Assembly (NCBI GenBank): GCA_017531805.1
Contig: JAFXKG010000008.1
Span: 1-42,988 of the forward strand
Length of the DNA stretch: 42,988 bases
From: Clostridia bacterium
Lineage (GTDB): Bacteria > Bacillota > Clostridia > Christensenellales > UBA1242
Direction: 5' to 3'
The notes below the pieces were generated by a model that had not been told where the DNA came from, ran no database searches, and saw only the letters and a list, made by a program, of their open reading frames with translations. The position numbers and the translations under genes are program-made. This document shows positions 17,673 through 38,110 of this stretch, in pieces; within the stretch, counting starts at the first letter, position 1; every line of letters begins with the position of its first letter.

Positions 17673-17698
17673 TTTTCACTTTTAAGTTATCAATACAA

Positions 17699-18502: not shown

Positions 18503-18525
18503 TTGTACCACCTTTTTATATAAAA

Positions 18526-23175: not shown

Positions 23176-23195
23176 GTTGTAAAAAAAGGAGGAAA

Positions 23196-24182
23196 ATGTC
23201 AAAAATTATACAATTTAATAAGATTTGTAAAGACTTCAAAGTATCTCTAAAAAAATCTGGCAAAAACAAATTTTTGAATCTGTTTAAAAGAGAACACAAA
23301 ACTATCTCTGCTTTAAAGGATGTTAGTTTTGAAGTTGAAGAAGGCGACATTGTTGGGTACATAGGACCAAATGGTGCTGGCAAAAGCACTACAATTAAAA
23401 TCATGAGTGGTATCCTTAACCCAACCTCTGGCGAATGCAGTATTATGGGATACACGCCATGGAAAGACAGAAAACAGTATGTAAAAAACATAGGCGTTGT
23501 ATTTGGACAACGATCTCAACTTTGGTGGGATGTGCCCATAATTGATAGCTTTGAGCTGCTTAAAGATATCTATAAAATACCTACAGACGAATACAACGAA
23601 ACTTTAAATGAACTTATCGAAACATTGAACTTAAAAGAATTGTTAAACCGCCCTTTAAGACAACTTTCGTTAGGTCAAAAAATGAAATGTGAACTTGCGG
23701 GTTCGCTGTTGCATAGGCCAAAAATCCTATTTTTGGATGAGCCCACAATTGGCCTTGATGCAGTTACGAAATTATCTGTTAGAGAATTTGTTAAAACCAT
23801 AAATAAAAAATGGAACACGACAATTATTCTTACAACACATGACATGAGTGATATTGATGCACTTACAAACAAAATAATACTCATTGGTCGTGGGCAAATA
23901 TTATACAAAGGTAGTTTTAGCGCCATCAAAGAAAAATACGACCACATAAAACAAATAGAAGTGGAATTTGCTAAACCCTATGACAAAATTGAACTTGAAG
24001 GATACGAAGTACTATCCCACAATCACAACTTTGCTACACTTAAAAACAAAGAAGAAATTAACTTCCACACAAAAGATTTCTTTAATGCTATCAGCAAGAA
24101 GTATGATGTTGTGGACTTCTCTGTAGAATCCATCAGTGTTGATGAAATTTTGGCAAAACTCTACACAGAGTTAAAGTTGTAG
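23196..24182 (+). CDS. ABC-2 type exporter ATP-binding protein
   Basis: A 328-residue ATPase of the COG4586-like, DrrA-related group. Walker A GPNGAGKST near residues 65-73, Q-loop VVFGQRSQLWWDVP (the W-rich stretch is typical of this group), signature LSLGQKMKCELAGSLLH, Walker B ILFLDEPTIGLD and the switch histidine in LTTHDM. The last 90 residues form the extra C-terminal domain. The ATG at 23196 has AAAGGAGG upstream; an earlier ATG at 23157 lies inside the attenuator and is rejected. The two permeases follow directly. Substrates of this exporter type include drugs and dyes in studied cases; here it is unknown. Confidence 0.9.
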   Translation: MSKIIQFNKICKDFKVSLKKSGKNKFLNLFKREHKTISALKDVSFEVEEGDIVGYIGPNGAGKSTTIKIMSGILNPTSGECSIMGYTPWKDRKQYVKNIGVVFGQRSQLWWDVPIIDSFELLKDIYKIPTDEYNETLNELIETLNLKELLNRPLRQLSLGQKMKCELAGSLLHRPKILFLDEPTIGLDAVTKLSVREFVKTINKKWNTTIILTTHDMSDIDALTNKIILIGRGQILYKGSFSAIKEKYDHIKQIEVEFAKPYDKIELEGYEVLSHNHNFATLKNKEEINFHTKDFFNAISKKYDVVDFSVESISVDEILAKLYTELKL

Positions 24183-24189
24183 GTGCATT

Positions 24190-24987
24190 ATGAGTTCGTA
24201 TTTAGGACTATTTAAAATGACATTTAAAGGCGAATTGCAATATCGTGCAAAAGCCGTATCTGGTGTCATTACTCAAGTGTTTTGGGGATTGATGTACATA
24301 TACCTTTACACCGCTTTTATGGGTGGTAAAATCATTGAAGGATTTTCTATCTCTCAAATGATAAGTTATGTGTGGATTGGTCAAGCTTTCTTTGTTCTGC
24401 GCTTTGCAGATTTACCTAAAAATTGCGCCAAAGAAATTGAAAACGGCAATGTTTGTTACAAATTTGTCCGCCCTGTAAACTTGTATAATCAATGGTTTGC
24501 AGAACATTTTGGTTACAAACTTTCATCTACAATAATAAGATGTATACCACTAAGCATTGTTGCTTTCTTGTTGCCAAAAGGCATAAGATTGACACTTGCA
24601 ACAAGTTTTACATCTTTTGCCTTGTTTGTGATTGCTCTTTTACTTGGGGCTCTCATTACATCTGCGATATCTATGATTTCTGTGTTCTTGACATTTAAAA
24701 CATTGTCCGCAAAAGGCACTTTGTCTATTGTAAACACTGTTTGTGGAGTGTTAGGTGGTATGTATGTACCATTAATATTCATGCCACAAGGTGTGCAAAA
24801 TGTTCTTAACTATTTGCCTTTTAGATTTATTATGGACTTGCCAGCTAGAATTTACATTGGTAATATTCCACCGCTAGAGGCATTAAAATTTATTGCAATA
24901 GCTGTCGCTTGGCTTGTTGCGTTGATTATTATTGGCAAAATACTTATCAACAAAGCAAGCAAAAACACAGTGATACAAGGGGGTTAA
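24190..24987 (+). CDS. ABC-2 type exporter permease 1
   Basis: A 265-residue membrane protein with six hydrophobic segments, of the COG4587 type: YRAKAVSGVITQVFWGLMYIYLYTAF near the start, MISYVWIGQAFFVLRF, and YNQWFAEHFGYK. It forms the heterodimeric membrane channel with the next gene product. Its start is seven bases after the ATPase stop, with TAGGTG as ribosome binding site. Confidence 0.85.
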   Translation: MSSYLGLFKMTFKGELQYRAKAVSGVITQVFWGLMYIYLYTAFMGGKIIEGFSISQMISYVWIGQAFFVLRFADLPKNCAKEIENGNVCYKFVRPVNLYNQWFAEHFGYKLSSTIIRCIPLSIVAFLLPKGIRLTLATSFTSFALFVIALLLGALITSAISMISVFLTFKTLSAKGTLSIVNTVCGVLGGMYVPLIFMPQGVQNVLNYLPFRFIMDLPARIYIGNIPPLEALKFIAIAVAWLVALIIIGKILINKASKNTVIQGG

Positions 24988-24988
24988 G

Positions 24989-25768
24989 ATGTTATACAAC
25001 AAATATGTTAAGATGCACACAAAATCAACAATGCAATATCGCTCTAATGTAATGATGTTATCATTTTCAGCCTGTCTTATATCGATAGGTGAACTACTTT
25101 CAATTTTTGTATTATTCAAAAATTTTAAATCAGTGGGATATTGGGGATTTTATGAAACCGCACTTATGTTTGGGATAATCACCGCCGTTTATTCGCTAAC
25201 TGAGTGTTTTGCTAGAGGGTTTGATGAGTTCCCTAGCCTTATCAAAAATGGTGATTTAGATAGACTTATGGTTAGGCCTGTAAATATGGTTTATCAAATA
25301 TTTGGCTCTAAAATAGAGTTTTCTAAACTGCTTAAAGCATGTTTGGGCATTGTAGTAATGATAATTGCAATAATCAACCTAAACATTATCTGGACTTTTA
25401 CAAAAATATTAGTATTGGTTATGACTGTAATCTGCGGATGCCTTGTAATTTGGGGCGTTATGTTGGTTGGTGCAGGCATCAGCGTATTTACTATTGAAAA
25501 TTTAGAATTTATCAATATATTTACAAATGGTGCCAAAGAAATTGCATACTTTCCAATCAATATTTACAACAAATGGTTGTCTAGATTGTTTACATTTATT
25601 ATTCCTGTTGCCTGCTTTAACTATCTGCCACTTTCTTATATAATGGGTTATGGCAGTTTGCCTAGCGTAGTCTACGCCCTATCACCATTGTTTGGAGCCT
25701 TGTTCTTGATACCTTGCCTTTTATTATTTTTATGGGCATTAAAAAGATATCAAAGTTCTGGCACATAG
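24989..25768 (+). CDS. ABC-2 type exporter permease 2
   Basis: A 259-residue six-segment membrane protein, the COG3694-type partner of permease 1. Matching features are QYRSNVMMLSFSACLISIGELLSIFVLF, the arginine-rich NGDLDRLMVRPVN loop and FPINIYNKWLSRLFTFIIPVACFNYLP near the end. The ATG follows the previous stop by one base, using GGGGG inside the upstream gene's end as its site. A terminator closes the three-gene operon. Confidence 0.85.
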   Translation: MLYNKYVKMHTKSTMQYRSNVMMLSFSACLISIGELLSIFVLFKNFKSVGYWGFYETALMFGIITAVYSLTECFARGFDEFPSLIKNGDLDRLMVRPVNMVYQIFGSKIEFSKLLKACLGIVVMIIAIINLNIIWTFTKILVLVMTVICGCLVIWGVMLVGAGISVFTIENLEFINIFTNGAKEIAYFPINIYNKWLSRLFTFIIPVACFNYLPLSYIMGYGSLPSVVYALSPLFGALFLIPCLLLFLWALKRYQSSGT

Positions 25769-25800
25769 CAAAAAGACACTCTGTTACGAGTGTCTTTTTT
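25769..25800 (+). terminator. Terminator of the ABC-2 operon
   Basis: AAAAAGACACTC (25770-25781), loop TGTTAC, GAGTGTCTTTTTT. Confidence 0.9.
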
Positions 25801-25837
25801 ATATTTATTTTTTTCGATTTTAATATTTAATTTTCTA

Positions 25838-25866
25838 TTGACAAGATGCTTTTTCAATGATATCAT
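25838..25866 (+). promoter_or_regulatory. Promoter of the 220-residue protein gene
   Basis: TTGACA (25838-25843), 17-base spacer, TATCAT (25861-25866). Confidence 0.8.
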
Positions 25867-25884
25867 GAAATAAAGAAGGTAAAT

Positions 25885-26547
25885 ATGAAATATTTAAGCA
25901 AACAAAACATACAACTTAATGGCAAACTTGTTTACAATTATACTTATGATTGCACCAAAGACGCAAAAGAAAATAATTGGAAGGATTGCCCTATTGTAAG
26001 TTTGTCAACCAAAAGCGAATTAAAACATTTTAAAATCAAACTTATTAACAACAGTGTTTTAAATGTTAGCAATTTTAGCAGTTGCGAAGTACGAAAAATT
26101 ATAAAATGTTATTTTAAAGATTGTTATGCAATAATTGAACTAGACAGGCAACGCTTAGTTACCGTGGTTTATATCGCAAACAACTATAATGTACTCAATT
26201 ATTATCTTGAGAATAGAATTTTATCCCCTGAAGAAATTGACGCTCTATTGTCAAATGAAAAAATAACAGAAATCAGTGCAAAAAATATAAAAACTTTTAA
26301 TATTAGAAATGCCAGACAAAATTGCCAAAGTTTCTTTGAAAATTTGCCAACACAATGCTATTTAAGTGACGAGTATTTAAAAGAGATTGTACAAAAAATT
26401 AGAGATAAAGAAATACCTATGGTGATAGAAAATGTAGCAGACACTCAATTTGTAAACATTGACGCTTGCAGAAAATTTAATCTTAATGTTTTTAAAGAAC
26501 ATTTAAATAAAGCACGCAAAGAAAAAGTTGGTTTAAATATTAAATAA
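25885..26547 (+). CDS. Protein of unknown function (220 aa)
   Basis: Not recognised. A soluble protein without membrane segments. The N-terminal half is beta-like with scattered cysteines (CTKDAK, NWKDCPIV, SSCEVRKIIKCYFKDC). The C-terminal half is helical and charged (YLSDEYLKEIVQKIRDKEIPMVIENV), ending in a basic tail. It is a single-gene unit with its own promoter, an AAGG site and a terminator, and borders the phage-head cassette, with which it converges. It could be an ordinary host gene marking the cassette's left edge. Confidence 0.75.
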   Translation: MKYLSKQNIQLNGKLVYNYTYDCTKDAKENNWKDCPIVSLSTKSELKHFKIKLINNSVLNVSNFSSCEVRKIIKCYFKDCYAIIELDRQRLVTVVYIANNYNVLNYYLENRILSPEEIDALLSNEKITEISAKNIKTFNIRNARQNCQSFFENLPTQCYLSDEYLKEIVQKIRDKEIPMVIENVADTQFVNIDACRKFNLNVFKEHLNKARKEKVGLNIK

Positions 26548-26550
26548 AGA

Positions 26551-26578
26551 AAAAACTGTTCGTCTGAACAGTTTTTTT
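26551..26578. terminator. Bidirectional terminator at the left edge of the phage-head cassette
   Basis: AAAAACTGTTC (26551-26561), loop GTCT, GAACAGTTTTTTT. It ends both the host gene and the cassette. Confidence 0.88.
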
Positions 26579-26581
26579 GTT

Positions 26582-27127
26582 TTAATTATTTACAATATTA
26601 ATGCAATTATTTTCGTTTGTTTCTATAACTTCTATCTTTTCATCAGTTGTTATTTCTGCTTCGGTTTTTTCTGCTGTTTTGTTCAATTTTTCCAAAATTG
26701 ATTGTTGAATATTGCTGATTGTCTTCATATTTTGTTCCAAGTCCATTGTAATTTTGTCTACAAGAATTTTGAAATCATTTTTATCAGTGTCATCAATATT
26801 TTCAACTTTTTCATCAATGGGTATAATTTCTACCGCTTCTTGTGCAATTTTGGTTTCAGTTAACTCTTGTTCTGCTTCAGTTACAGTTTCTTCAACAGCG
26901 GTTTCAGAGATTACTGTAGCAACTTTTTTATCCTTGCTTTCTTCTTGCTTTAAATAGATTTTTGTAGGGTCACTGATGATACCAATAACCACTAAAAGAC
27001 CTAAGACTGCAGTAGAAATTTCATTTATGTAAGCAATGTCAAACTCTATATTAAAAGCTTGCAAAATCAACAATGCTGCACTGACTAGTGAAATCCAAAA
27101 ATTATAATTTGTAAGTCTGTTTTTCAT
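26582..27127 (-). CDS. Holin-like protein (phi LC3 type) with long acidic tail
   Basis: A 181-residue protein. Residues 1-60 match the small phi LC3-type phage holins: NYNFWISLVSAALLILQAFNIEF, a second hydrophobic segment ISTAVLGLLVVIGIISDP and the typical DPTK turn. Those holins usually end near residue 80. Here about 110 further residues follow, rich in Glu, Thr, Ile and Lys (ISETAVEETVTEAEQELTE), probably helical or disordered. Holins permeabilise the membrane for lysis, but no endolysin is encoded nearby, so another membrane role is possible. It is the last gene of the cassette, 101 bases after the gp10-like gene, with a good AAGGAG site. Confidence 0.75.
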   Translation of the reverse strand: MKNRLTNYNFWISLVSAALLILQAFNIEFDIAYINEISTAVLGLLVVIGIISDPTKIYLKQEESKDKKVATVISETAVEETVTEAEQELTETKIAQEAVEIIPIDEKVENIDDTDKNDFKILVDKITMDLEQNMKTISNIQQSILEKLNKTAEKTEAEITTDEKIEVIETNENNCINIVNN

Positions 27128-27228
27128 TTTTACTCCTTTCTATCTTTGAAAGTTGTTCAAAGACTAAATTCCTTTCTAAGAAGTAAAGATATCTATAATA
27201 AATATTAAACCTTTTAAGCATTGATAAA

Positions 27229-28656
27229 TCAATATTCATAATAATCCAAAACAACATGGTCAACTTGCGCACTGCTGTCGTTTGAAGAAATTTCTAATCG
27301 CATTTGTTTGCAATTAATTTTAAAACAAAATTCGTTTAAACCTGTTTTGTAAGTTGTAAAACTGATGCTTTTGCCATCGTAAATAAGATTAAACTTGATG
27401 TTTATATCGGCTTTTACTGTCAATTTTGTAAATAGTTTAACTTTGTAGTTATCCACCAAATCACTTGATGACCAATATTTTGGCAAAGATTCATCAAAAC
27501 TGGTTGCACCCTGTTGAATCTGACCAAGTTTTTTGTTATCCTTGGTGTTAAATGTGCAAAGCATTGTTTCAATCTTTTCTGTCTTAAGTGGCAAAAGAGA
27601 CTTAATATCAACACCCCTTACAACCTGATAAGAATAATCGTTTATATCAACAACAACAAGCGCATTGTTGATACAATCAAATTGTTCACACAAGATTTTG
27701 TTGTTGTCTTCAAAATCAAGTTTTACTGCCAAATAATATTTATCTCCAAGCGATGATGCAACTGCATTTTGATTTAAACCTGTTAACATGTCATGTATAT
27801 TAACATTTGTTTTGCTGACTTTTACACCATTAAAGGTGTGCAAACCTTCGTTTGTCATAAACATAATAATATTGCCACAAACACTAACTGTATTTGACAG
27901 AATTTTTGTATTTGACAAGTAAACCTGATTTACACTGATGTTGTTTTTAACAAAACTGATTTTTGATATTCCGTAATCTCTAAACACAAATACATCATGA
28001 TCAAAAGTAACAATTTTTCTTGCATATCCTAAGTCGTCTTCAAGTGAAATATAGCCCGAATTTTTGCTTATATTACCAATATTTTCTGCATCTAGGTCGG
28101 TAGCATACCACACCTTAAACGCAGGCTCTTGAATAGTACAAAACAAAACTCCGTCGTTCATACACATGCTTGTAATGATTGGCACATCACTCACTGTATA
28201 AGGTGAGTAACCTGTTTTCCAGATTTTCATTTGCTCTTTGCTTGCTAAGATAATAACATCTTCGTCATTTTTTTTGTAACTAAGCGTAATAGGCGCACTA
28301 TCAAACTCTAAACTATACAACCAATACAAATCCATATCCTGATCAAACATTTGATTTAAATAAACCTTTTTGTCTGACCCATAAACCAACAACTTGTGTT
28401 GTGTATTGCCTGATTTTTTGTAAAATTGTTTAAAATATGCAACACCGTCGATGCTTTCAAGATTTAATTTGTCAGTATTAAGCGGATATAGTGTCATATC
28501 ATCAACATCATATGGCAATTTTGCAACACCAACACCCATACAGTTTAGCAGTTTGTTGTCAGTTGGCAAGCAGTTATAAAATTTGTCTACCGCAACAATA
28601 TTTTGATTAGAAAAATTGTTGAACTTTTTTATTTCAACAGATTTTTTAATACTCAT
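27229..28656 (-). CDS. gp10-like tail-hub/packaged-DNA stabilisation protein
   Basis: A 475-residue beta-rich protein in the place where P22-like phages have gp10 (472 residues), the tail protein that plugs the portal after packaging. It repeats blade-like units ending in patterns such as KQFYKKSGNTQHKLLVYGSDKKVYLNQ, PIITSMCMNDGVLFCTIQEPAFKVWYATD and CGNIIMFMTNEGLHTFNG, in line with a beta-propeller. The match is by length, order and fold pattern, not by a firm motif. The start ATG (28656) overlaps the previous stop as ATGA and has GAGGAG six bases upstream; an ATG six bases earlier is too close to that site. Confidence 0.6.
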   Translation of the reverse strand: MSIKKSVEIKKFNNFSNQNIVAVDKFYNCLPTDNKLLNCMGVGVAKLPYDVDDMTLYPLNTDKLNLESIDGVAYFKQFYKKSGNTQHKLLVYGSDKKVYLNQMFDQDMDLYWLYSLEFDSAPITLSYKKNDEDVIILASKEQMKIWKTGYSPYTVSDVPIITSMCMNDGVLFCTIQEPAFKVWYATDLDAENIGNISKNSGYISLEDDLGYARKIVTFDHDVFVFRDYGISKISFVKNNISVNQVYLSNTKILSNTVSVCGNIIMFMTNEGLHTFNGVKVSKTNVNIHDMLTGLNQNAVASSLGDKYYLAVKLDFEDNNKILCEQFDCINNALVVVDINDYSYQVVRGVDIKSLLPLKTEKIETMLCTFNTKDNKKLGQIQQGATSFDESLPKYWSSSDLVDNYKVKLFTKLTVKADINIKFNLIYDGKSISFTTYKTGLNEFCFKINCKQMRLEISSNDSSAQVDHVVLDYYEY

Positions 28657-29216
28657 CCCCATCTCCTCATAGGCATTTCAAAAACTTTAAGTTGTTTAAG
28701 TCCTTCTGCTTTTTCACAATATGTTCGACGAAAGATATCATACTCTTCAAACATGCCTTTTGTTAAAGCATAAAACGAACATAATCCCATAACCAGCACA
28801 TCTGGACTAAAGGTTTGCAAAAAATCAATTTCATCAAAAAGAGATGAAATTTTTGGATATGTAGCAAATTTAATAAAATATTTACCATCTTCGGCAAAAG
28901 TTATGTTTCTGCCAACAATTTTATAATCAACAAAATTTCCATCTTTTGTTATTTCTACAATCTTTATATAATTGTTCAACTTGTTCAATGCATATCGTTT
29001 GTTTTCTGTTTGTATTTCTTCTTCCACTGTTACAGGTATATAATTTGTGCACAATTCTTGTATTGCATACTGACTTAGATTTAACAATCTTGACAATTCT
29101 TCATTAGATTGCAATGTCGTTTCTTCAGTATCTTCAGTGATATTGTTTAAAACTTCTAATTCTTGCCCCAAACCCAAAAATTCTGCACTTTGTTTTATAA
29201 TATCAATAATTTTCAT
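28653..29216 (-). CDS. Head-completion adaptor (gp4/gp6-like)
   Basis: A 187-residue mostly helical protein between capsid and tail-hub genes, the place of head-tail adaptors such as P22 gp4 (166 residues). Early helices IIKQSAEFLGL and EELSRLLNLSQYAIQELCTNY are followed by a beta insert and helices containing SPDVLVMGLCSFYALTKGMFEEYDIFRRTYCEKAEGLK, a layout typical of connector proteins that ring the portal. The ATG at 29216 overlaps the upstream stop as TGATG, and AAGGAG precedes it. Confidence 0.65.
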   Translation of the reverse strand: MKIIDIIKQSAEFLGLGQELEVLNNITEDTEETTLQSNEELSRLLNLSQYAIQELCTNYIPVTVEEEIQTENKRYALNKLNNYIKIVEITKDGNFVDYKIVGRNITFAEDGKYFIKFATYPKISSLFDEIDFLQTFSPDVLVMGLCSFYALTKGMFEEYDIFRRTYCEKAEGLKQLKVFEMPMRRWG

Positions 29217-29542
29217 CAATTCTCCTTAAGTTTATCTTCCATCAGATTATTAAAATCAGAGAGAACTTTGCGTTTGTCGTCGTTCTCTCTGATTTCATTA
29301 TCTTGCTCTATTTGGTTTAATATTTTATCAATATTTTCGCTTCTTGTTTCGACAACATATTTTAATGTCCTTTCGTCTAAAAATTCGTACGGTAAGGTCA
29401 AACAAAAAGTGTTGTCTATTTGAGATGTGTTATGAACCTCAAACTTACCTTTTGATGTATCATAAACCACATAATAATCTTTATCTATATTTTTTATTCT
29501 TTTTGAAATTTCGTATACATCATGAGTAAGTTTGATTATCAT
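29216..29542 (-). CDS. Small phage-cassette protein (108 aa), unknown function
   Basis: Not recognised. The first half looks beta-rich (IKLTHDVYEISKRIKNIDKDYYVVYDTSKGKFEVHNTS) and the second half is a charged helix (ENIDKILNQIEQDNEIRENDDKRKVLSDFNNLMEDKLKEN). Its position straight after the capsid gene, and its overlap with the adaptor gene, mark it as part of the head operon. A head-decoration or assembly role is possible but unproven. Confidence 0.7.
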   Translation of the reverse strand: MIIKLTHDVYEISKRIKNIDKDYYVVYDTSKGKFEVHNTSQIDNTFCLTLPYEFLDERTLKYVVETRSENIDKILNQIEQDNEIRENDDKRKVLSDFNNLMEDKLKEN

Positions 29543-29575
29543 AATTTCTCCTTAGTTTTTTAATTTACGCAGATT

Positions 29576-30754
29576 TTAAACTGCAAAAGGGTTTGTTACA
29601 TTTGCACTAATATTTGTAAATTTAGCTTGGCCATTTGGTTGGTCACAAATTAGGTCGGCATATTTAACCAGTGTCGCACTATATGCTGGATAACCTGCTT
29701 TTTGACGCAAGATTTTACCGCCTTCGCCTTCAATCCACTCCCAATCACAAAGTTGATGAAGAGTAAATTTGCTTGTGTCTAACATGTATAAAGTATCGTC
29801 TGGAATAAACCTATCTGACACAACAGGAATTCCGTTGAAAGTCATAGCTTTATATCCACCTTCAAGCATAGTTACATCAATGTTTCTTCTATAACAAGAA
29901 AGGTATTCTTGATATGCGCGTTTTACGCCTGATCCACAAGAGATAAAGTCAATGTTTGAACCAGTATTTTCTTCTAAAAAGTCTACTGCTGATTGCAAAA
30001 CACCATCACTGATTTCTTGAGATGCAGTGCTGATATATGGAGTAAGCCAACCATTTGTTGCTCTTGTCAAACCATAAAGAGTTGCACTGTCACCAAAGAT
30101 AGCGCCAAGACCAGTGATTTCGTTGTCTTTGCTACCTTGAACATAAAACATATCGCCAGCTTCGATTGTTGCACTTGGTGCAGATGTAAATTGGACAGTT
30201 TTGTTTACTCTGTCAACATATGCGATACGAAGACCAGCATTTTTCTTTGTTGTGCCTGCATATACATCAATAACCATACCTTCGATAAGGTTTTTTACGC
30301 TATCCATTGTTGCTACACCAGAAGCATAATTTGCAACTGTGCCTACAACACCACTTCCGTCGCCGTACAACATACGACCAAGATTAAATTTTGATGCTGA
30401 AAGCAAGCCTTCCATTTCTGCATTTAACAAATCGATAAATGCACCACTATTGTTAGAACTTGCTCTGATTGCTTTGTCACTAATTTCTATAGTGCCATAA
30501 AGGTTTTTTAAAGTTGTTTTAAATTGTACATAATTGTTTTCGTTAGCAGTTGGCAATTCGCCTGTTTCACTGCCTGCACCGATACCACCGTTAAGTCCAA
30601 CCGGTGCAACTTTGATGATTTGTTTACCATAAACATCGCTAGAAGATTGCTTAATCTTTGCAAGCAATGGGTTTGTTTTTGTATTTAATTGATTGCACGC
30701 TGCAACCAAGTATGCATCTTTTAATGCATTTTGAGCTGTTGTTAAGTCTATCAT
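29576..30754 (-). CDS. Phage major capsid protein, HK97 fold
   Basis: A 392-residue shell protein of the HK97-fold families (P22/gp5-like and related). The N terminus has a helical arm (TAQNALKDAYLVAACNQLNTKTNPLLAKIKQSS). EISDKAIRAS and the long spine helix FIDLLNAEMEGLLSASKFNLGRMLYGDGSG follow. An inserted beta domain lies near residues 160-210, and the A-domain elements ISCGSGVKRAYQEYLSCYRRN and FNGIPVVSDRFIPDDTLYMLD complete it. Nothing in it looks decayed. It is directly downstream of the scaffold gene. Confidence 0.88.
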   Translation of the reverse strand: MIDLTTAQNALKDAYLVAACNQLNTKTNPLLAKIKQSSSDVYGKQIIKVAPVGLNGGIGAGSETGELPTANENNYVQFKTTLKNLYGTIEISDKAIRASSNNSGAFIDLLNAEMEGLLSASKFNLGRMLYGDGSGVVGTVANYASGVATMDSVKNLIEGMVIDVYAGTTKKNAGLRIAYVDRVNKTVQFTSAPSATIEAGDMFYVQGSKDNEITGLGAIFGDSATLYGLTRATNGWLTPYISTASQEISDGVLQSAVDFLEENTGSNIDFISCGSGVKRAYQEYLSCYRRNIDVTMLEGGYKAMTFNGIPVVSDRFIPDDTLYMLDTSKFTLHQLCDWEWIEGEGGKILRQKAGYPAYSATLVKYADLICDQPNGQAKFTNISANVTNPFAV

Positions 30755-30771
30755 TTAGACATTTCTCCTTT

Positions 30772-31326
30772 TTATTTTTGTTTGATAATTGATTTTGCCA
30801 AACGACCTGCTTCTTGTATGGTTGTAGGTTGTTTTGGCGGAGTTAAAGCAAAGTTTGCACTTGTTTGCATTTTGATTGGAGTATTTTGAGTTACATTTGA
30901 TAAATATTCTTTTACAATTTTATCTTTGATTGTTTGATTAGAATAAATGTAGTTATTCAAAAACTCATCATCAGACACATAATCTTGTGCAGTTTTGTAA
31001 TTGTTTGATATAAGTTTTATTGCTTCTTCCTTGATGTCAACATCTTGATTGTTTGCCAAAGTTTCTTTTAGCGCGCTACTAAAAGGTTTGGCTATTTCAA
31101 ACTTTGTTACAAAATCTTCTACTTTTTTCTCTTGTTCTGCTCGCTTTTCTGCTTGTTGTTTGTATTCGTTTTGTTCTGTTTCAAGCGTTGCAAGCCTTTG
31201 ACTTTTCTTGGTAAACTCTGCTTCTAAATTTGAATAGGCCTTTAACAAACTTTCGGCATCTTTAAATTTACCAAACTCTGATGTGGAGCCTAAATCTTTT
31301 TGATTTGGTTGTTCCATATTTTCCAT
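30772..31326 (-). CDS. Phage scaffolding protein
   Basis: A 184-residue acidic helical protein directly upstream of the capsid gene, the standard place of scaffolds. Residues about 25-75 form a predicted coiled coil rich in Glu, Lys and Gln (NLEAEFTKKSQRLATLETEQNEYKQQAEKRAEQEKKVEDF). The C terminus is short and basic (ARLAKSIIKQK), as needed for capsid binding. Scaffolds direct shell assembly and then leave. The ATG is eight bases after AAGGAG. Confidence 0.8.
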   Translation of the reverse strand: MENMEQPNQKDLGSTSEFGKFKDAESLLKAYSNLEAEFTKKSQRLATLETEQNEYKQQAEKRAEQEKKVEDFVTKFEIAKPFSSALKETLANNQDVDIKEEAIKLISNNYKTAQDYVSDDEFLNNYIYSNQTIKDKIVKEYLSNVTQNTPIKMQTSANFALTPPKQPTTIQEAGRLAKSIIKQK

Positions 31327-31329
31327 AAA

Positions 31330-33192
31330 TTATTCTCCTTGTATTTGTTTGTTTATTGCAAGTTTATGTTCTTCAATATGTTTTAACAATCTTGCAATTA
31401 TTTGTTTGCTGTTAAGTTTGCGCTTGATTTCACCACCTAATATATAAGCGGTGTGCTCATCAATATGTATTTTGTGATCGTCAATAGGCAAAATTTCTAC
31501 CTTGTCCGCATTTGTTGCAGATATATTTTCTTCTTTTGCTTTTTGAATTTGCAAAGCATTAAGGTCTACAGTATTTTCCCACATACCAAAACCTAACAAA
31601 TCTAAACACTTTTTACGCATGCTGGCACTAAATTTACCATCTTGGTCAAACATTAAACCTTGCTTAATCAAATCCATAAGCATGGTACGGCGTCTTGCCA
31701 AACTTTCTGCACCATCACTAGACGCATCAAACACAACATCATCACTGCAAATTTCGTTTTGATCCCAGTAGTACATTTGCATTTCGCCACTTTCACCTGC
31801 AATTTTAAGCAATCTTGGAAGCACAGCATATTGCTTGTACAATCTTAAAATATATTTAGCCACAAGTTTAACCGCAAGTTTTGACGAATCTATTGATGTC
31901 AACAATCTTGTATCATCTTGTTCTGCCAAAAGTTGCAACGCTACACCAGACATATTAGAGTATTGTGCATAACTATCAGTCATCATGTCACTTACGCCTG
32001 ACACTGTTTTAAATTCGCTAAGCAATCTTTCTTCTTCTTTGTCAAAATCTATTGTCAATTTTGGATTTTGCATAATTTCTGGAACTTTGCTACCTTGCCT
32101 GTATACCAAAACCTTGCCTGGTGACAATCCTTCTATCTCTAAAGCGTCGGTATCAACACTGCCGTCTTCAACTGCCAAAACATTCATGACAGAACGATTA
32201 AAATATTCATGTTTTCTGTTTCTGACTGCGTTGTATGCTCTTTGCAACGGAATAAGCCTGTCAACAACACTCACACCAAAGAAACTGCCTGGCAAATAGT
32301 TAGATATTTGCTTAACAAACGGAAAAGTTCTGTTTGACAATTCATCATTTACATATGGCAACTCTCCGTCAAACAAAAGTTTGTTGCCCGCAACGATTGT
32401 CAACCTTCCGTTTGGATGTTTTTTGCTTGGTCTTTCGTATCTTTCGATTAAGATACAATGATTGTCAAGTTGTACACTTGCCATTTTGTTTATGTGAGCA
32501 TCGTATCCAAGTCCACCAAGATTGCCAGTGTGAGAGTCTAGTGTAAACGAGTTCACCTTTTCTGGTTCTACATCTACGCTCCATAACGATTTAATTTCGC
32601 CAATATCAACTGCTTTTGCATGAATTATACTTTTTAAATCTTCTAGCCTTTCACAAGCAAGATTGTCAGGGAAAATTTCAAAAGGCGACACAACTTCAAC
32701 ATTGACATCACCTTCTTTTATGTTGTTACCTAAATCGTCAACCGCAACCATTTTGCCAGAGTTTGTATCCCAAACTACTTTATAAAAAACTGTGCCACAA
32801 ATTTCGCTCCAAGTTGTTGCTGTTTTAACAATGTCCGCAAGGTTTAATCTTTCCGCCACCGAATTGATGATTTCTTTGCTTAGTTTTGCACTTTCTATAT
32901 CTGCGTCATCTGTTGATGCTGGCACAACTGTGATACTTGGTGTTTTTGATGTAACCTTAGAAATACGAGTTTCTACAATTGGTGCTATGTGGTTAAACAC
33001 TTCTTTTTCTTGCCAAAAATATTGTTTTTCGTCTTGATTGATTGCACCATTGCGTGCTATGTAACTATATTGATTGCCAAGCAAAAAGTTGATGTTTAGT
33101 TGCCACTGAGCTTCTAAACTTCTTCTTGCCTCCCTACGCGCATTAAAATCAAACAATACTTCTTCAACGATTTTTTGATGAGATTTATTCAT
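31330..33192 (-). CDS. Phage portal protein, P22/T7-like
   Basis: A 620-residue portal protein, the dodecameric ring through which DNA enters the head. It fits the large podovirus-type portals: the N terminus NARREARRSLEAQWQLNINFLLGNQY, EVVSPFEIFPDNLA in the wing, the NYLPGSFFGVSVVDRLIPLQRAYNAVRNRKHEYFNRSVM block near the middle, and the GVSDMMTDSYAQYSNMSGVALQLLAEQ stem-crown stretch. A long helical C-terminal part follows. It overlaps the preceding small gene by eight bases. No frameshift or stop interrupts it. Confidence 0.88.
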   Translation of the reverse strand: MNKSHQKIVEEVLFDFNARREARRSLEAQWQLNINFLLGNQYSYIARNGAINQDEKQYFWQEKEVFNHIAPIVETRISKVTSKTPSITVVPASTDDADIESAKLSKEIINSVAERLNLADIVKTATTWSEICGTVFYKVVWDTNSGKMVAVDDLGNNIKEGDVNVEVVSPFEIFPDNLACERLEDLKSIIHAKAVDIGEIKSLWSVDVEPEKVNSFTLDSHTGNLGGLGYDAHINKMASVQLDNHCILIERYERPSKKHPNGRLTIVAGNKLLFDGELPYVNDELSNRTFPFVKQISNYLPGSFFGVSVVDRLIPLQRAYNAVRNRKHEYFNRSVMNVLAVEDGSVDTDALEIEGLSPGKVLVYRQGSKVPEIMQNPKLTIDFDKEEERLLSEFKTVSGVSDMMTDSYAQYSNMSGVALQLLAEQDDTRLLTSIDSSKLAVKLVAKYILRLYKQYAVLPRLLKIAGESGEMQMYYWDQNEICSDDVVFDASSDGAESLARRRTMLMDLIKQGLMFDQDGKFSASMRKKCLDLLGFGMWENTVDLNALQIQKAKEENISATNADKVEILPIDDHKIHIDEHTAYILGGEIKRKLNSKQIIARLLKHIEEHKLAINKQIQGE

Positions 33193-33397
33193 CCTTTCCT
33201 CCCTTTTTGTAAATTGGTTTTATGTTTTTTGGCTTTATGTATCTGCCAATTTCACCGTAAAGTTCATTTAAGCATTTTTCACATAAATAAACACTTCCGT
33301 CAAAAACAAACTTTTTGTTAACAATCTGATAATTGCAAGCATTATTGCAACCACTTGCATCACATTTAACTTTTGGTTTTGCTGTTTCTACTATCAA
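33185..33397 (-). CDS. Small zinc-binding phage-cassette protein (70 aa)
   Basis: The start is TTG at 33397, with GGAG seven bases upstream. The product has a likely zinc site built from C-x4-C-x3-C (CDASGCNNAC) and a later CEKC, followed by a basic tail (PKNIKPIYKKGGKDE). It overlaps the gene before it by 32 bases and the portal gene after it by 8 bases, a very tight packing. Such small zinc proteins are common near portal genes of prophages; the role is unknown. Confidence 0.7.
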   Translation of the reverse strand: MIVETAKPKVKCDASGCNNACNYQIVNKKFVFDGSVYLCEKCLNELYGEIGRYIKPKNIKPIYKKGGKDE

Positions 33398-33683
33398 TTT
33401 CTTTCTCCTTTAGTTTAAGTAACAAACGCTGTTTTTCTGCTTCCAACTGCTCGTCTGTCATTTTGTCATAATCAATTGTTTTTTCTGCATAATGCTGATA
33501 TATTAATTTGATGATATCAGCATTTGGTGGCAAACTTTTTTCGTTTATCTTTTGCTTAACCACTTTAAGTTCGCCAGTTTCTTCATCTACGCTATATTCT
33601 GTGGTTATTTCTTTAGTTGTAAGACCAGTTATACACTGTTTTAACGCCTTAAGTGTGTTGTCATCAAAAATATTGGTTTTTAT
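33366..33683 (-). CDS. Small terminase-like protein with no canonical start codon
   Basis: The reading frame is open from the TGA just above 33683 to the stop at 33366. The first ATG/GTG/TTG-type start is GTG at 33563, which would remove 40 well-formed residues and has no ribosome binding site. AAGGAGG lies ten bases before an in-frame ATA at 33683, giving a 105-residue product beginning with IKTNIFDDNTLKALKQCITG. A helix-rich N-terminal half and a very charged C-terminal helix (KMTDEQLEAEKQRLLLKLKEKE) fit a small terminase or a packaging accessory. The start codon is my inference. Confidence 0.5.
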   Translation of the reverse strand: MKTNIFDDNTLKALKQCITGLTTKEITTEYSVDEETGELKVVKQKINEKSLPPNADIIKLIYQHYAEKTIDYDKMTDEQLEAEKQRLLLKLKEKEIDSRNSKTKS

Positions 33684-33684
33684 G

Positions 33685-35112
33685 TCACATCACCCTCCTT
33701 GCTTTGTTTAGTCGTATCAATCTTTCTTTTTCTCTTTGCACAATGTTAAGTTCAGGTTTTGGCTTTTTATTTTCCGGACGCGACATTATGTAATATCTCA
33801 ATTCGTCCATACTATGGTCGTCTACTTTTACTGGACTATCTCCCTTGCCCCACCTGTAACCCTTAATTTCTCTTATAAGGTTTTTGCAGGTGTTAAAGAT
33901 AAAAAGTTTTACTTCTCCATTGCTATTTTTAAGATATGATTTAACGCGCTGTATACCAGAAAACACATCTTTGTTTACATTGGTATTTACCAAAATGTTG
34001 TAGTCGTAAAACAAGTCTGCTACGCTTTTTCTAGATGCAAGTGTTGTTTGATTTGCGGCACTATCTATCATTGCTTCTAACATACCGTTGCTGTTTCTAT
34101 GCCAGTGTAGTTGATTGCTGATTTCGTGTATTTTGTTGCTGTGATATTCTATATCTTTTTCCTTTTCGTAGTGCTCTGCGACTATGTATATATTTCCATC
34201 GTAATCTACTGCATACCAATGACAAGAAAGCGGATTTTTTAAGCCTGGGTCTATTGACAATTTATCTTGCCAATCATATGGCAAATCAAAAGGTTCTATC
34301 ACATGTACATTTTCATCAAATTCTGGATACACCCTGCCACCAACATCCATAAATTCGCCATATTGTCTAGACCTTAATTCTTGCTCAGACATACTTGCTT
34401 TCATGGCATTTTTGGCTTGTTCGCTTATATGTGGGTTGTCGTCCCACTGCATAAATTCGTACCAGATATTATCGTCATTAAACCTGTTCATAAATATTTC
34501 ATCATAAACAAAAGTCATACCTTTAAGTGGTGTCATTGTTGCAAAAATATCACCATTTTTATCCAATACTCGCATGCGACACTCTTGGTAAATATCATAA
34601 GGCGGTTCTTCGTCAAACCAGACATAGTCTAGGCTTGTGCCCTGAAATTTTTCTCTGCCTTGGTCACAACTTTTAAAACCAATTTTACTGATAGAGCCAA
34701 ATATGTTTTTTATCAAAATATAGTCTATGACGCCGTTTTGATAATTATCTTTACGCCCTTTTGTCATCACAATATCTTCTATCCAATCTGGGTTTAAATA
34801 GTTTAAAATTTTGCTTTGTGCTACATCTCTTTGCACCTGTGTGGATAAACTTACAACCCAACCAGACGTTGCACCACACACTTCTCTATACGGATGACAC
34901 CCGCGTGCCATGTAGACAACTTCTACCGCACCACACTCTGTTTTGCCACTTCTGTTACCGCCAAACACCCATCTATTTTTTTTATAACACTGATGAAAAG
35001 CAATCTGCTTTAAGTGTTTTTTATCGCCTGTATTGTAGTAATGAAGTTTGTTTTTGTTTTTTCGGTCGTTTTGTATTTTTTCTATTTTTAATATTTCTTC
35101 AACCAAATTCAT
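33685..35112 (-). CDS. Phage terminase large subunit
   Basis: A 475-residue DNA-packaging motor. The ATPase half has Walker A GGNRSGKTE near residues 52-60, Walker B LDYVWFDEEPP near 165 and the coupling motif TMTPLKG near 198. The nuclease half shows the acidic residues of the RNase H fold: SIDPGLKNP near residue 275, MIDSAANQ near 333 and DHSMDELRYYIMSR near 440. All catalytic residues are present. The type (GGNRSGKT) is that of P22-like and T7-like phages. It is the first gene of the head operon, with AAGGACG before the ATG. Confidence 0.92.
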   Translation of the reverse strand: MNLVEEILKIEKIQNDRKNKNKLHYYNTGDKKHLKQIAFHQCYKKNRWVFGGNRSGKTECGAVEVVYMARGCHPYREVCGATSGWVVSLSTQVQRDVAQSKILNYLNPDWIEDIVMTKGRKDNYQNGVIDYILIKNIFGSISKIGFKSCDQGREKFQGTSLDYVWFDEEPPYDIYQECRMRVLDKNGDIFATMTPLKGMTFVYDEIFMNRFNDDNIWYEFMQWDDNPHISEQAKNAMKASMSEQELRSRQYGEFMDVGGRVYPEFDENVHVIEPFDLPYDWQDKLSIDPGLKNPLSCHWYAVDYDGNIYIVAEHYEKEKDIEYHSNKIHEISNQLHWHRNSNGMLEAMIDSAANQTTLASRKSVADLFYDYNILVNTNVNKDVFSGIQRVKSYLKNSNGEVKLFIFNTCKNLIREIKGYRWGKGDSPVKVDDHSMDELRYYIMSRPENKKPKPELNIVQREKERLIRLNKARRVM

Positions 35113-35139
35113 TTTCGTCCTTAATTTACACCAAAAGTC

Positions 35140-35156
35140 GTAAAGTTTACCCTAAA
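35140..35156 (-). promoter_or_regulatory. Possible operator upstream of the phage-head operon
   Basis: A perfect 11-base palindrome GTAAAGTTTAC (35140-35150) overlaps TTTAGGGTAAA (minus strand, 35156-35146), 35-45 bases before the terminase ATG. The second motif recurs at 36542-36552, upstream of the regulator gene. A clear sigma-A promoter is not visible here. Confidence 0.45.
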
Positions 35157-35185
35157 CATGTCAAAATTTTTGCAATTTTTTATGT

Positions 35186-35191
35186 TACAAT
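35186..35191 (+). promoter_or_regulatory. -10-like hexamer placed for a leaderless SH3-protein mRNA
   Basis: TACAAT ends six bases (all T) before the ATG at 35198; no ribosome binding site is present. Confidence 0.4.
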
Positions 35192-35197
35192 TTTTTT

Positions 35198-35959
35198 ATG
35201 ATTTTGTTATTGATTTTTTTGTTGTCTATACAGAACACAATGTTGCCAGCTTATGCAACCAATACTCAAAAATTTTACGCGCGTATTATGCAAGAAGGTG
35301 TTATATTATACAAATCACCTATAGATGTTTTAGATACAGAAAATGTGTTTTTTGAGTTGCCACGCACATATTTTGTAGAGCTGATTGACAGTGCCAATCA
35401 ACAGTTTTTTATGGTAAACTATATGTCGTTTACAGGTTATGTAAAAAAAGAGTGTGTACAAACTATTGTAGGCACTCCTAAAAAACCTTTTTTAACTGAT
35501 ATCAGTTTCCGCATTTACGCAGAGCCAAGCCGTGATATGCGTAGCGAACCCACAACAAGCGGTGGAAGTTTAAGCCAAGTAACTTACATACCTTTGATGT
35601 CTAAAAATCTTACCTTTATTGGCAAAATTACAGGCGAAGAACTTGTGTCTGGCAGAACGGATATATGGTACTATTGCAAATACAGTGCAGACCGCGATTA
35701 TTATGGATATGTTTATAGCGATTTTTGCGATCAACTTACACCAATCTTAGACAACACAGAAAGCGTAACTTACACTTCTAGCCCTGTTTTTAGCACACCT
35801 CAACAACAGCAAACAGCCATACCTTTAACAGACAAAACAACAGGAATAATCATTGCCATATTGTTTGTACCAGCAGGCATATTTGCCTTTATGATATTAA
35901 AAAACAAAAAAATACTAAAACAAGAAAAAATCCACTCAAAAGAAGTTGTAGATTATTAA
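35198..35959 (+). CDS. Membrane-anchored SH3-like surface protein
   Basis: A 253-residue protein with an N-terminal signal peptide (MILLLIFLLSIQNTMLPAYA), an outer part of two SH3-like repeats (the second with FRIYAEPSRDM and WYYCKYSADRDYYGYVYSDFC) and a single membrane segment near residues 213-236 followed by a short basic tail. The topology puts the repeats outside the membrane, probably facing peptidoglycan. It is divergent from the terminase operon and convergent with the regulator gene, with only a four-base overlap at its end. It looks like a host gene. No Shine-Dalgarno is present. Confidence 0.75.
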   Translation: MILLLIFLLSIQNTMLPAYATNTQKFYARIMQEGVILYKSPIDVLDTENVFFELPRTYFVELIDSANQQFFMVNYMSFTGYVKKECVQTIVGTPKKPFLTDISFRIYAEPSRDMRSEPTTSGGSLSQVTYIPLMSKNLTFIGKITGEELVSGRTDIWYYCKYSADRDYYGYVYSDFCDQLTPILDNTESVTYTSSPVFSTPQQQQTAIPLTDKTTGIIIAILFVPAGIFAFMILKNKKILKQEKIHSKEVVDY

Positions 35960-36441
35960 ATTGTTACTTCGCACTTATAAGCCATCCTTCTGTTTTTTAA
36001 ATCGTCTTTAATTGCCAAAATCCAATCTTCTGCATTTAAAATTGTTTCCAACTTTACAAGATATTTTGACCTATTTAAAGCATTTGCCAAATTTAAATAT
36101 GCATGTTCTATGCGTCTAAAAGCGGTGCGCTCTTTTAATTCTAAAACACCGCATAACTCACTCATAGTTAAACTATAATGCATTTTTACAAAAAGAACTT
36201 TTTTGTCTTCTTCCTTTAATCCTTTTATAGCTGTGTCAACTATCACTTTAAGATTAATTAATTGGTTTTTCCTTGTAATTAAATCTATAATATTATTGCA
36301 AACATCTTCCGCACCATATTCCAATGTGCAAGGACCAAAATACATAGCATGGTTTCTTATAAACTTGTCTATTGCGTCACATTTTTTGCTAAGCAACCTA
36401 TATGTTTTAACAATAGTTTCACTATCATAAATATCAATCAT
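35956..36441 (-). CDS. Sigma-region-4/ArpU-like transcription regulator
   Basis: A 161-residue helical protein. Residues about 95-140 form a helix-turn-helix like sigma region 4 or the ArpU phage late-gene activators (LKEEDKKVLFVKMHYSLTMSELCGVLELKERTAFRRIEHAY). The first 90 residues are helical and may dimerise. The ATG at 36441 has AGGGGTG upstream; a longer frame reaching 36573 lacks any site. It lies 0.8 kb upstream of the phage-head operon, on the same strand, and shares an upstream 11-mer with it, so it may activate that operon. That link is an inference. Confidence 0.65.
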   Translation of the reverse strand: MIDIYDSETIVKTYRLLSKKCDAIDKFIRNHAMYFGPCTLEYGAEDVCNNIIDLITRKNQLINLKVIVDTAIKGLKEEDKKVLFVKMHYSLTMSELCGVLELKERTAFRRIEHAYLNLANALNRSKYLVKLETILNAEDWILAIKDDLKNRRMAYKCEVTI

Positions 36442-36464
36442 TTTATCACCCCTGATTGCAAAAG

Positions 36465-36494
36465 AGTATAATTCATAAAATGTCGAAAAGTCAA
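36465..36494 (-). promoter_or_regulatory. Promoter of the regulator gene, with a 0A-box-like site
   Basis: On the minus strand TTGACT (36494-36489), 18-base spacer, TATACT (36470-36465). TGTCGAA, the Spo0A box core, lies in the spacer on the plus strand (36481-36487). Confidence 0.6.
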
Positions 36495-36541
36495 GCATAT
36501 ATGACAAGTTTTTTACAAAAATAAAACAAAAATGACACATT

Positions 36542-36552
36542 TTTACCCTAAA
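36542..36552 (-). repeat. Second copy of the TTTAGGGTAAA motif
   Basis: An 11-base match, same orientation, to the motif before the terminase operon; here about 100 bases upstream of the regulator ATG. Confidence 0.5.
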
Positions 36553-36692
36553 AATGCCATTTTTATCAAACATTTGTTCTATTTTGTAAAATATATCAGT
36601 TTTATTTCTATCATTTATATAATATCATATTTTGCAATTTTTTACAATCAATCTGCCAAAAAACAAAGATTTTTTTGTGTGTAAAAAATAAA

Positions 36693-36714
36693 AAAACCGC
36701 TAATTCGCGGTCAA
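36693..36714 (-). terminator. Terminator of the SSB-like gene
   Basis: ACCGC (minus strand) GAATTA GCGGT followed by a T run; the stem overlaps the last codons and the TAG stop. Confidence 0.75.
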
Positions 36715-37335
36715 GTTTTCTATTGGTGACAATTTTGATATTGAAACTTCGTATGCAGTTTTTACAATAGGTTCATCACATCCTTCAATATGCTTTGAAT
36801 ATTCTCTGCTTTGAATTCTACCAACGACAGATAAGCAGGTCCCTACCGCCATACCATTTACAAATTGAGCATTTCTACCCCAAGCAATGCACGGTATATA
36901 ATCCGATTTGTTATAATTTCTATTTACTGCCAAAAGCATATCACAAATTTCTCTAGAAAAAGGTGTTGTACGATAAATTGCAGGCTTGCAAATATATCCG
37001 TTCATTTCGATTGTATTTGCATTTGCACCATCATCCCAATCGCACAATTCTCTCACAAACACAGACAAAACAAGTTTCCTTTTGTTGTCCTCTAGTTTGT
37101 TAAAACTTCTAAATTGTCCTTTTAAAGCGATTTTGTCGCCAACAAAAATAGGTTTTGACATTAAAATTCTTTCTGATATTGTAATTGGAATAATGTCATA
37201 TTGTCCACTTAAGCGTGGTATTTTTAAATGAAAACCAAAAAAGTTTTCGTCCATAACAGCGTGGTTCATTTGTGGCAAATCTACAACTTCGCCTTGCAAA
37301 TAAACCTTATTGTTATTTAATAACTCTTCAATCAT
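36700..37335 (-). CDS. Two-domain single-stranded-DNA-binding-like protein
   Basis: A 211-residue protein with two OB-fold units of the SSB type. Unit one spans about residues 8-100 (NKVYLQGEVVDLPQ, ISERILMSKPIFVGDKIALKGQFRSF). Unit two spans about 107-205 (IEMNGYICKPAIYRTTPFSREICDMLLAVNR, YIPCIAWGRNAQF, TCLSVVGRIQSREY), the latter close to canonical SSB. The acidic DDDIPF-type tail of replication SSB is missing. It probably binds single-stranded DNA as an accessory to replication, repair or recombination. A host gene by context, though its closeness to the regulator and packaging genes leaves a cassette role possible. Confidence 0.8.
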   Translation of the reverse strand: MIEELLNNNKVYLQGEVVDLPQMNHAVMDENFFGFHLKIPRLSGQYDIIPITISERILMSKPIFVGDKIALKGQFRSFNKLEDNKRKLVLSVFVRELCDWDDGANANTIEMNGYICKPAIYRTTPFSREICDMLLAVNRNYNKSDYIPCIAWGRNAQFVNGMAVGTCLSVVGRIQSREYSKHIEGCDEPIVKTAYEVSISKLSPIENLTAN

Positions 37336-37348
37336 TTGTTTCTCTCCT

Positions 37349-38110
37349 TTAGTTTTTGATTTGAGTTCCTTGTATATTTATTGTAAAATCATTGTAATAT
37401 ATCAGTTGCCCGATAGGAACAACACTTGTTTGTTTTAATTTAAAGTGTTCTAACACCAGTTTTAAACCATCTATTATATTGTCTGAATTATTATGGAAAA
37501 GAACTATGCTTCCGTTTTTAGATTTAGATGTAACTCTGCCAGCAATTTGACTTGCACTTAAGCCTTTCCAATCTAGACTATCAACATCCCACTCTATACA
37601 ACTTAGGCTCAACTCATCACAAACTTCAATTAAATTATTGTTGTAATAGCCATAAGGCGGACGGAACAACTTTGGTGTAAAACCTGTCAAATTCTTTATT
37701 AATTCTATATTAGTTGTAAGTTCTTCTCTTATTTCATTTTTGCTTAGTTTTGTCATATCAGGATGCGTATTTGAGTGTATACCAATTTCAAAACCATTGT
37801 TGTAAATTTCCTTTACCATATCTGGATATTTTTCTATCCAAAAACCCACAAGGAAAAATGTTGCTTTTACACCATAACTATCACACACCGACATAATTTC
37901 TCTTGTTTTATCTGCACCCCATGCAGCATCAAATGAAATTGCCACTTTATTTTCATCCGTTTGAACAGAATATATTGGCAATCTTTTACTTGCACTACAA
38001 TAAGTATGCCCAACAGGCAAACCAGACAAATTTAGCAAAAACGCCGAGAAAAAAACTACTATCGCCAAAGCGACTTTTAATGTTGCTTTTTTAAAAAACA
38101 GCACCTTCAT
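37349..38110 (-). CDS. PdaB-like sporulation polysaccharide deacetylase
   Basis: A 253-residue CE4 deacetylase with an N-terminal signal-anchor (VALAIVVFFSAFLLNLSGL, residues about 12-30). Family motifs are SFDAAWGAD (motif 1, catalytic D), HSNTHPD (metal histidines), RPPYGYYN, WDVDSLDW and a final FHNN in place of the usual LHD/LHP. The AAWG in motif 1 is the mark of the PdaB sporulation branch, which acts on spore peptidoglycan. It stands 13 bases upstream of the SSB-like gene, so the two may be cotranscribed. AAGG precedes the ATG at a longish distance. Confidence 0.88.
   Translation of the reverse strand: MKVLFFKKATLKVALAIVVFFSAFLLNLSGLPVGHTYCSASKRLPIYSVQTDENKVAISFDAAWGADKTREIMSVCDSYGVKATFFLVGFWIEKYPDMVKEIYNNGFEIGIHSNTHPDMTKLSKNEIREELTTNIELIKNLTGFTPKLFRPPYGYYNNNLIEVCDELSLSCIEWDVDSLDWKGLSASQIAGRVTSKSKNGSIVLFHNNSDNIIDGLKLVLEHFKLKQTSVVPIGQLIYYNDFTINIQGTQIKN

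Follow-up and report, generated by a model that had tools for sequence, protein, structure and literature searches.

Gene content of the cassette

The stretch of DNA analysed here, referred to as the window, comprises 42,988 nucleotides from a Clostridia bacterium of the order Christensenellales, family UBA1242 (assembly GCA_017531805.1, contig JAFXKG010000008.1), and is contig C6 of a 921-kb assembly that is 81% complete. It carries a cassette of phage-head genes, in which ten open reading frames (ORFs), all on the minus strand, occupy positions 26582–35112, no gap or overlap between neighbours exceeding ~120 bp. This is the tight, same-strand packing first read from the letters alone (the original prediction), and the tenth gene, then left without a name and encoding a 108-amino-acid (aa) protein, is conserved too. 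The phage-head unit runs past these limits to 36573, adding an SH3 protein and a phage-type regulator.

Four of the products are identified by family models: the large terminase TerL (33685–35112; Pfam PF03237, E value 3.5e-16, and PF17289, 4.9e-5), a portal protein of the P22 type, the mark of a P22-type head module (31330–33192; P22_portal PF16510, 1.4e-25; phrog_156, 7.5e-40), the major capsid protein (29576–30754; phrog_14242, 1.3e-57) and a holin-like protein (26582–27127; phrog_297 holin, 3.7e-12; Phage_holin_1, 1.2e-4). In a profile search against solved structures, the capsid retrieved a capsid protein (0.0056) and the portal one portal (7.5e-6). Of the remaining names given in the original prediction, scaffold, adaptor and plug follow from gene order, the window's own copies having no convincing match in family-model searches. 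The scaffold-like protein (30772–31326) is named for its place between portal and capsid and the adaptor-like 188-aa protein (28653–29219) for its position alone; none of 20 adaptor homologues matches any PHROG family, and the solved-structure search returned for it one irrelevant match (0.071) and no phage adaptor chain. For the 477-aa plug or tail-nozzle-like protein (27229–28662), gene order is joined by homologues, 9 of 20 of which, the window's own copy not among them, match phrog_3287 “virion structural protein”; the solved-structure search gave nothing at E up to 1, hence no nozzle chain. The conserved 108-aa protein (29216–29542) sits at the head-completion position, from which its role is taken. 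Between portal and TerL lie a 70-aa zinc-binding-like protein with a CXXC motif read by eye (33185–33397) and a probably truncated protein resembling the C-terminal part of the small terminase TerS (33366–33653, the start being uncertain and placed by comparison).

Upstream of TerL, 85 bp (35113–35197) contain a block, TGRCAAGTTT...TTTTGGTGTAAATTA, that aligns in 12 sequences of the genus and is a candidate promoter or operator. Next to it, on the plus strand, is the gene of the SH3-like protein (35198–35959), recognised by alignment (SH3_3 only at E 0.073) and carrying an N-terminal signal-like and a C-terminal membrane segment, as read from its sequence; this gene is opposite in strand to TerL in all 50 loci where both were found. 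The regulator (35956–36573, minus strand) is sigma region-4-like and matches phrog_36 at 2e-6; all 14 homologues match phrog_36 (transcriptional regulator) and 12 of the 14 match phrog_248 (transcriptional activator). It may act on the block before TerL.

The cassette is as unremarkable in composition as the original prediction had it, with a GC content of 0.29–0.35 versus 0.28–0.37 in the surroundings. Several of the absences it listed also hold up. No PF00589 integrase match occurs on the window's contig, the three of the genome being on contigs C8, C1 and C9; no direct repeats of at least 18 nt flank the cassette within 24500–37500; and family-model searches recognised no replication, repressor or tail gene among the cassette ORFs. 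The features by which a temperate prophage would be known were thus not recognised.

On the holin side, a 516-aa and a 270-aa gene closely follow the holin gene in five of the seven genus loci L032–L038. In the window (16122–18511 and 23157–26547) these two genes lie ~8 kb from it, with an ABC exporter set, a 220-aa gene without Pfam match and others in between.

Terminase, selection and inheritance

The motor of the cassette appears intact, as had been claimed for its catalytic motifs. The TerL motifs GGNR[ST]GK and WFDEEP, which we take to be Walker A and Walker B, are invariant in 19 homologues, and so are Asp288, Asp350, Asp432 and Asp436, presumably including the acidic residues of the nuclease.

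For the TerS-like ORF, the annotated length of 65 aa probably falls short: upstream, the frame continues open to a stop near 33690, the first listed start being GTG at 33563, and its genus homologues have 72–109 aa. Among ten family members scanned, two of them identical, five (four of the nine distinct ones) match phrog_309, terminase small subunit, at E 1.3e-5 to 0.017, and the matches fall only at positions 191–266 of the 319 of the profile, i.e. in its C-terminal part. The 165-aa TerS of a related phage contig (L128) matches positions 131–284, and its N-terminal half reads by eye as a helix-turn-helix. Such a half would not fit into the window, where the stop near 33690 closes the frame. 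On this moderate evidence, the protein is likely, but not proven, to be a TerS that has lost its DNA-binding half. Loss of the N-terminal DNA-binding domain has been proposed as a defining trait of the TerS of gene transfer agents (GTAs; PMC6854486), and the possible TerS of the Faecalibacterium GTA (FpGTA) is likewise reported to have no obvious DNA-binding domain (PMC12946183).

Selection was estimated within the genus as the ratio of non-synonymous to synonymous substitution rates (dN/dS, Nei–Gojobori) from pairs with unsaturated dS, most pairs being saturated. The ratio is 0.033 for TerL (one pair), 0.023–0.046 for the portal (two pairs) and 0.046–0.117 for the capsid (three pairs), next to 0.055 for the host gene SSB (one pair) and 0.038 for pdaB (two pairs); the plug had no usable pair. 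In these few pairs TerL, portal and capsid are under purifying selection, and the dN/dS near 1 named beforehand as counter-evidence was not found, the three genes staying at 0.02–0.12.

We then compared a tree of five cassette proteins with one of rpoB over 30 genomes, which represent the window's family together with families f3, f6, f8, f15, f17, f19, f20, f29, f32 and f33 (four of the 30 have no TerL in the locus and were gapped; all trees of this study are “quick” ones). The two trees share 17 of 27 splits, compared with a mean of 0.3 and a maximum of 3 in 999 label shuffles, and the cassette and rpoB distances correlate (Mantel r 0.49), with none of 999 permutations as high. Fast-evolving lineages with shortened portals are among those displaced in the cassette tree. 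Vertical inheritance of the cassette in the order is well supported by these data.

Distribution and phage relatives

Of the 147 genomes of the family, 134 have the portal (97 of the 106 good ones; 41 of 42 genera), most of them in a single copy. In the order as a whole, 237 of 396 genomes have a match to the capsid profile, including 201 of the 329 good ones; the matches, almost always a single one per genome, come from 72 of 142 genera and 18 family groups, and gene order was read in 12 families. Across the phylum, 11 of 398 genomes match, the window's own included, and five of the others do so strongly; around these five, no cassette-type TerS-like, SH3 or regulator gene was found, and all five resemble phages or prophages. 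As a phylum-wide marker, DUF7934 (c16) matches 19 of 398 genomes, one above the cut-off; the matches look like short, coiled-coil noise, except for one in G619, located ~2 kb from stretch L163. ComEC is present in 35 of 36 genomes, cassette-bearing or not, and is therefore uninformative on DNA delivery.

Gene order was read in 40 family loci and, for 11 further families of the order, in 35 loci. These 35 were chosen among the higher-scoring matches of the capsid on long contigs, a non-random set in which the capsid count is given by construction, and their proteins were not used to build the profiles. The profiles derive from the window's own family, where presence counts therefore hold by construction. 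Portal, capsid, TerS-like protein and adaptor are present in all 35, TerL, scaffold and plug in 34, and c16 in 32, followed by the 108-aa protein (29), SH3 (28), the zinc protein (24) and the regulator (22).

Within the genus, all eight genomes searched, the window included, have the portal, and the seven others have the same neighbours as the window, SH3, regulator, SSB and pdaB, at a locus adjoining sigG, spoIIGA, sigE and pdaB. Neither of the two situations that were to speak against the original prediction was encountered: the cassette is not missing from the close relatives searched in the genus, and no full prophage with integrase was seen at the site, the integrase matches of these genomes being on contigs other than that of the cassette, apart from one weak match in G011 that lies ~20 kb away from the portal. 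SSB is near the cassette in 7 of 7 genus loci, in 12 (families f1, f8, f15 and f20) of the 58 loci outside the genus and in 0 of 10 loci with a shortened portal, a pattern that suggests one ancestral place with later moves. The relatives with 74–77% portal identity include Candidatus Onthoplasma faecipullorum; Onthoplasma belongs to the family UBA1242 of Christensenellales and has reduced genomes with unexpected sporulation genes (PMC12306168).

Variant loci were also observed. Ten family loci (L053–L057 and L059–L063), from several genera, have a portal shortened to 350–489 aa, with no stops inside it among the matches listed, and the regulator, SH3 and zinc genes were found near none of the ten cassettes. 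Elsewhere, at least five portal matches contain internal stops (G033, G039, G097, G128 and G139). TerL is either absent from a 20-kb stretch surrounding the portal or set apart from the portal in L042, L044–L046, L048 and L066 and in L041 and L043; where it is set apart, a large gene of 803–1120 aa without PADLOC match lies between. L052, L069, L117 and L119 have a tandem pair of capsid genes, and the capsid of L148 (G424) has an in-frame TGA at the otherwise invariant Cys370, which could reflect error, truncation or recoding. In L132 (1–15525), L115 (13203–20254), L091 (8658–16250) and L120, the tail half is absent after the capsid, which is followed instead by cytosine methyltransferases, McrBC, a type I system, Mrr/helicase and LexA-like genes. 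The 67.7-kb record of L132 has its plug gene at 65138, suggesting an inserted restriction-modification island of somewhat less than 60 kb; no plug gene was found in the records of the three others.

Turning to viral collections, 64 IMG/VR contigs encode this capsid, and 45 of them, having the cassette's TerS-like marker, are probably chromosome. IMG/VR labels as viral contigs that bear the chromosomal cassette (L079–L083, L085–L118, L121, L122, L124, L125, L132 and L133). The remaining contigs include true phages; free phages or prophages related to the cassette are L126–L131, L134–L136, L138, L163 and L164. Like P22-like phages, these have portals and capsids homologous to those of the cassette. 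Upstream of their TerL, six of seven proteins tested match TerS families and measure 161–223 aa; unlike the cassette, the free relatives gave no c7, SH3 or regulator match in the stretches examined. The median scaffold length is 217 aa in 64 genome cassettes and 216 aa in the 45 IMG/VR cassette contigs, versus 297–431 aa in the eight IMG/VR phage contigs where a scaffold was found (p ~1e-5); portals are slightly shorter in cassettes than in phages, capsids are not. The nearest capsids among GenBank phages are only 25–29% identical.

In the capsid tree, one branch parts 37 cassettes from 13 phages with a support of 93 in the SH-like approximate likelihood ratio test (SH-aLRT), and the portal tree has the same parting with weak support (SH-aLRT 78). 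The phage set underlying these trees was regrouped after gene content had been seen, and L137, L165, L166 and L167 were dropped for being partial or having very long branches; in the first capsid tree, L137 lay within the cassette clade and L165–L167 far outside. A single cassette clade set against the first, mixed group of “other” sequences had been rejected (p 4e-43), metagenome cassettes then standing among the “phages”. The comparison with free phages suggests the steps of a domestication: loss of the DNA-binding half of TerS, shortening of scaffold and portal, and fixation of the regulator and of the SH3 gene.

A candidate gene transfer agent

That the cassette is a domesticated, selected and vertically inherited DNA-packaging unit is well supported. 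Going one step further, we consider it likely, judging by gene content and sequence comparison, that it is a GTA derived from a P22-like, short-tailed phage and kept in much of Christensenellales. It has several of the traits by which such agents are recognised: structural and packaging genes of phage origin fixed in a host lineage, with losses; no genes for self-replication or integration recognised in the cluster; and purifying selection on structural genes, in the core genes and the few unsaturated pairs available. The domesticated particle maker of the original prediction gains support in its GTA-like half from the vertical inheritance, the short TerS-like protein and a published podovirus-like GTA.

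In such an agent, the regulator would turn on the operon at the candidate promoter before TerL, and the capsid, with the shortened scaffold, would assemble a small head upon the portal. TerL, together with a TerS deprived of its DNA-reading half, would begin packaging chromosomal DNA with no sequence preference and cut it after filling the head. The vertex may then be sealed, with a very short nozzle, by the adaptor, 108-aa and plug proteins, and holin-type proteins may aid the release of particles, from which kin would take up DNA.

The closest parallel by description is FpGTA, an equally podovirus-like, chromosomal system without replication genes, whose ten-ORF operon encodes TerL, a possible TerS, portal, scaffold and capsid; it differs in having a second operon, which encodes a tail fibre, a receptor-binding protein, a holin and an endolysin, and in its demonstrated particles with ~9 kb of DNA (PMC12946183). 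The holin-like gene of the cassette is inside it, and a second operon was not found, with a single tail-like profile searched. The agent of Rhodobacter capsulatus (RcGTA), an alphaproteobacterial system, has another phage ancestor and a longer tail. It shares with the cassette a phage-derived head cluster (PMC6854486, PMC7947584), a TerS without N-terminal DNA-binding domain (PMC6854486) and a dedicated regulator, GafA (PMC9638019).

Packaging in the order itself is addressed by PMC12946183, the one paper retrieved by our literature search that we judged to bear on it (PMC13356809 also contains the words). It reports host DNA packaged in a GTA-like manner, with 3 of 25 events in genera of Christensenellaceae, and, in its accessible text, leaves the genes there unnamed. 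Its gene search names four metagenome-assembled genomes, none from Christensenellaceae, after which FpGTA homologues were sought across all scaffolds; as this clustering named homologues only in Faecalibacterium, close similarity of the cassette to FpGTA is not expected. The same source warns that vesicles can mimic the read patterns of GTAs. The cassette would be a natural candidate for these events. For Onthoplasma, the accessible portion of PMC12306168 mentions neither phage nor capsid.

Several observations pull against a GTA. The cassette is known here from its genes, and the adaptor and plug roles, resting on gene order and for the plug also on homologues, are putative. No endolysin was seen in the cassette, no search having been made elsewhere in the genome; the tail-like gene c41 of other genera was found in none of ten genomes (the genus and two neighbours), in a search run with no positive control; and no tail fibre or receptor-binding gene was found, the c41 profile being the sole search. 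In the 35 loci of the order, a BhlA-like gene is present in only 14 and a holin-like gene near the cassette in only 12. The one TerS-like genus member scanned (L032) has no phrog_309 match, and the profile comparison of the TerS-like family with the L128 TerS reached a probability of 6% (E 0.006; hhalign), a weak result because of which the TerS identity stays at likely. Ten of the 27 splits, mainly deep ones, disagree with rpoB, the TerL tree requires two changes rather than one to part cassettes from phages, and three of the 64 genome cassettes have scaffolds of phage length (304–368 aa). The dN/dS values come from few unsaturated pairs, and medians are higher for the scaffold (0.20), the regulator (0.28), the 108-aa protein (0.31) and the adaptor (0.33), while SH3 gave 0.09 in one pair and 0.52 in another. 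Finally, the cassette is dispensable, since G034 (100% complete) and G048 (97%) have neither portal nor capsid and the capsid is missing from 159 of the 396 genomes of the order.

One rival is a particle of the PBSX type, which would package host DNA yet kill competitors or kin instead of transferring genes. PBSX of Bacillus subtilis is, like the cassette, a GTA-like element of a Gram-positive host, and it does not inject DNA but acts as a killing particle (PMC12946183). The same gene content would suffice for it, and the doubt whether DNA is delivered has also been raised for FpGTA (PMC12946183). Among the cassette ORFs, however, nothing was recognised as a bacteriocin-like tail fibre or an immunity gene, and a fully conserved packaging motor is not obviously required for mere killing, so that we hold this explanation to be unlikely, with a modest share of the probability.

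Packaging that serves the host within the cell, for storage of DNA or protein or in sporulation, with no release, appears more doubtful still. It is suggested by the genus locus beside sigG, spoIIGA, sigE and pdaB, by the signal-like, membrane-anchored SH3 protein encoded invariably opposite TerL and by holin-like genes that are not universal. The sporulation neighbourhood is not a constant one, however, its marker SSB being scarce outside the genus and absent near the shortened-portal loci, and a holin-like gene is kept in all seven genus loci fetched.

An ordinary prophage, or a clean remnant in the course of being lost, which the original prediction had kept as an alternative, is largely contradicted and very improbable: the genes are phage-derived, related full phages and prophages exist and ten family loci have shortened portals, but these portals show no stops among the matches listed, core-gene dN/dS is low, the contig has no integrase and the cassette is co-inherited order-wide. 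A satellite or helper-dependent mobile element with its own head genes, the other half of the particle-maker proposal, would fit a compact head module in which replication genes were not recognised, but is the least credible, finding no support because the cassette sits in the chromosome, mostly in one copy, and is inherited along with its host, with no contig integrase or flanking repeats found.

Returning to the GTA interpretation, we lean slightly towards an ancestral agent of the whole order, in which a short-tailed phage was domesticated once, at an early stage of Christensenellales, and passed down through many families; this agent would also be the source of the host-DNA particles reported for Christensenellaceae of human stool. 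For that packaging, the cassette supplies a testable gene set shared by much of the order. Outside Alphaproteobacteria few transfer agents are known, and this one, if the interpretation is right, would be among the widest-spread of them, kept even in ~1-Mb genomes bearing spore genes, where it takes up ~1% of the chromosome. Uncultured gut bacteria, including those with near-minimal genomes of 1 Mb, would then keep a dedicated machine for sharing DNA.

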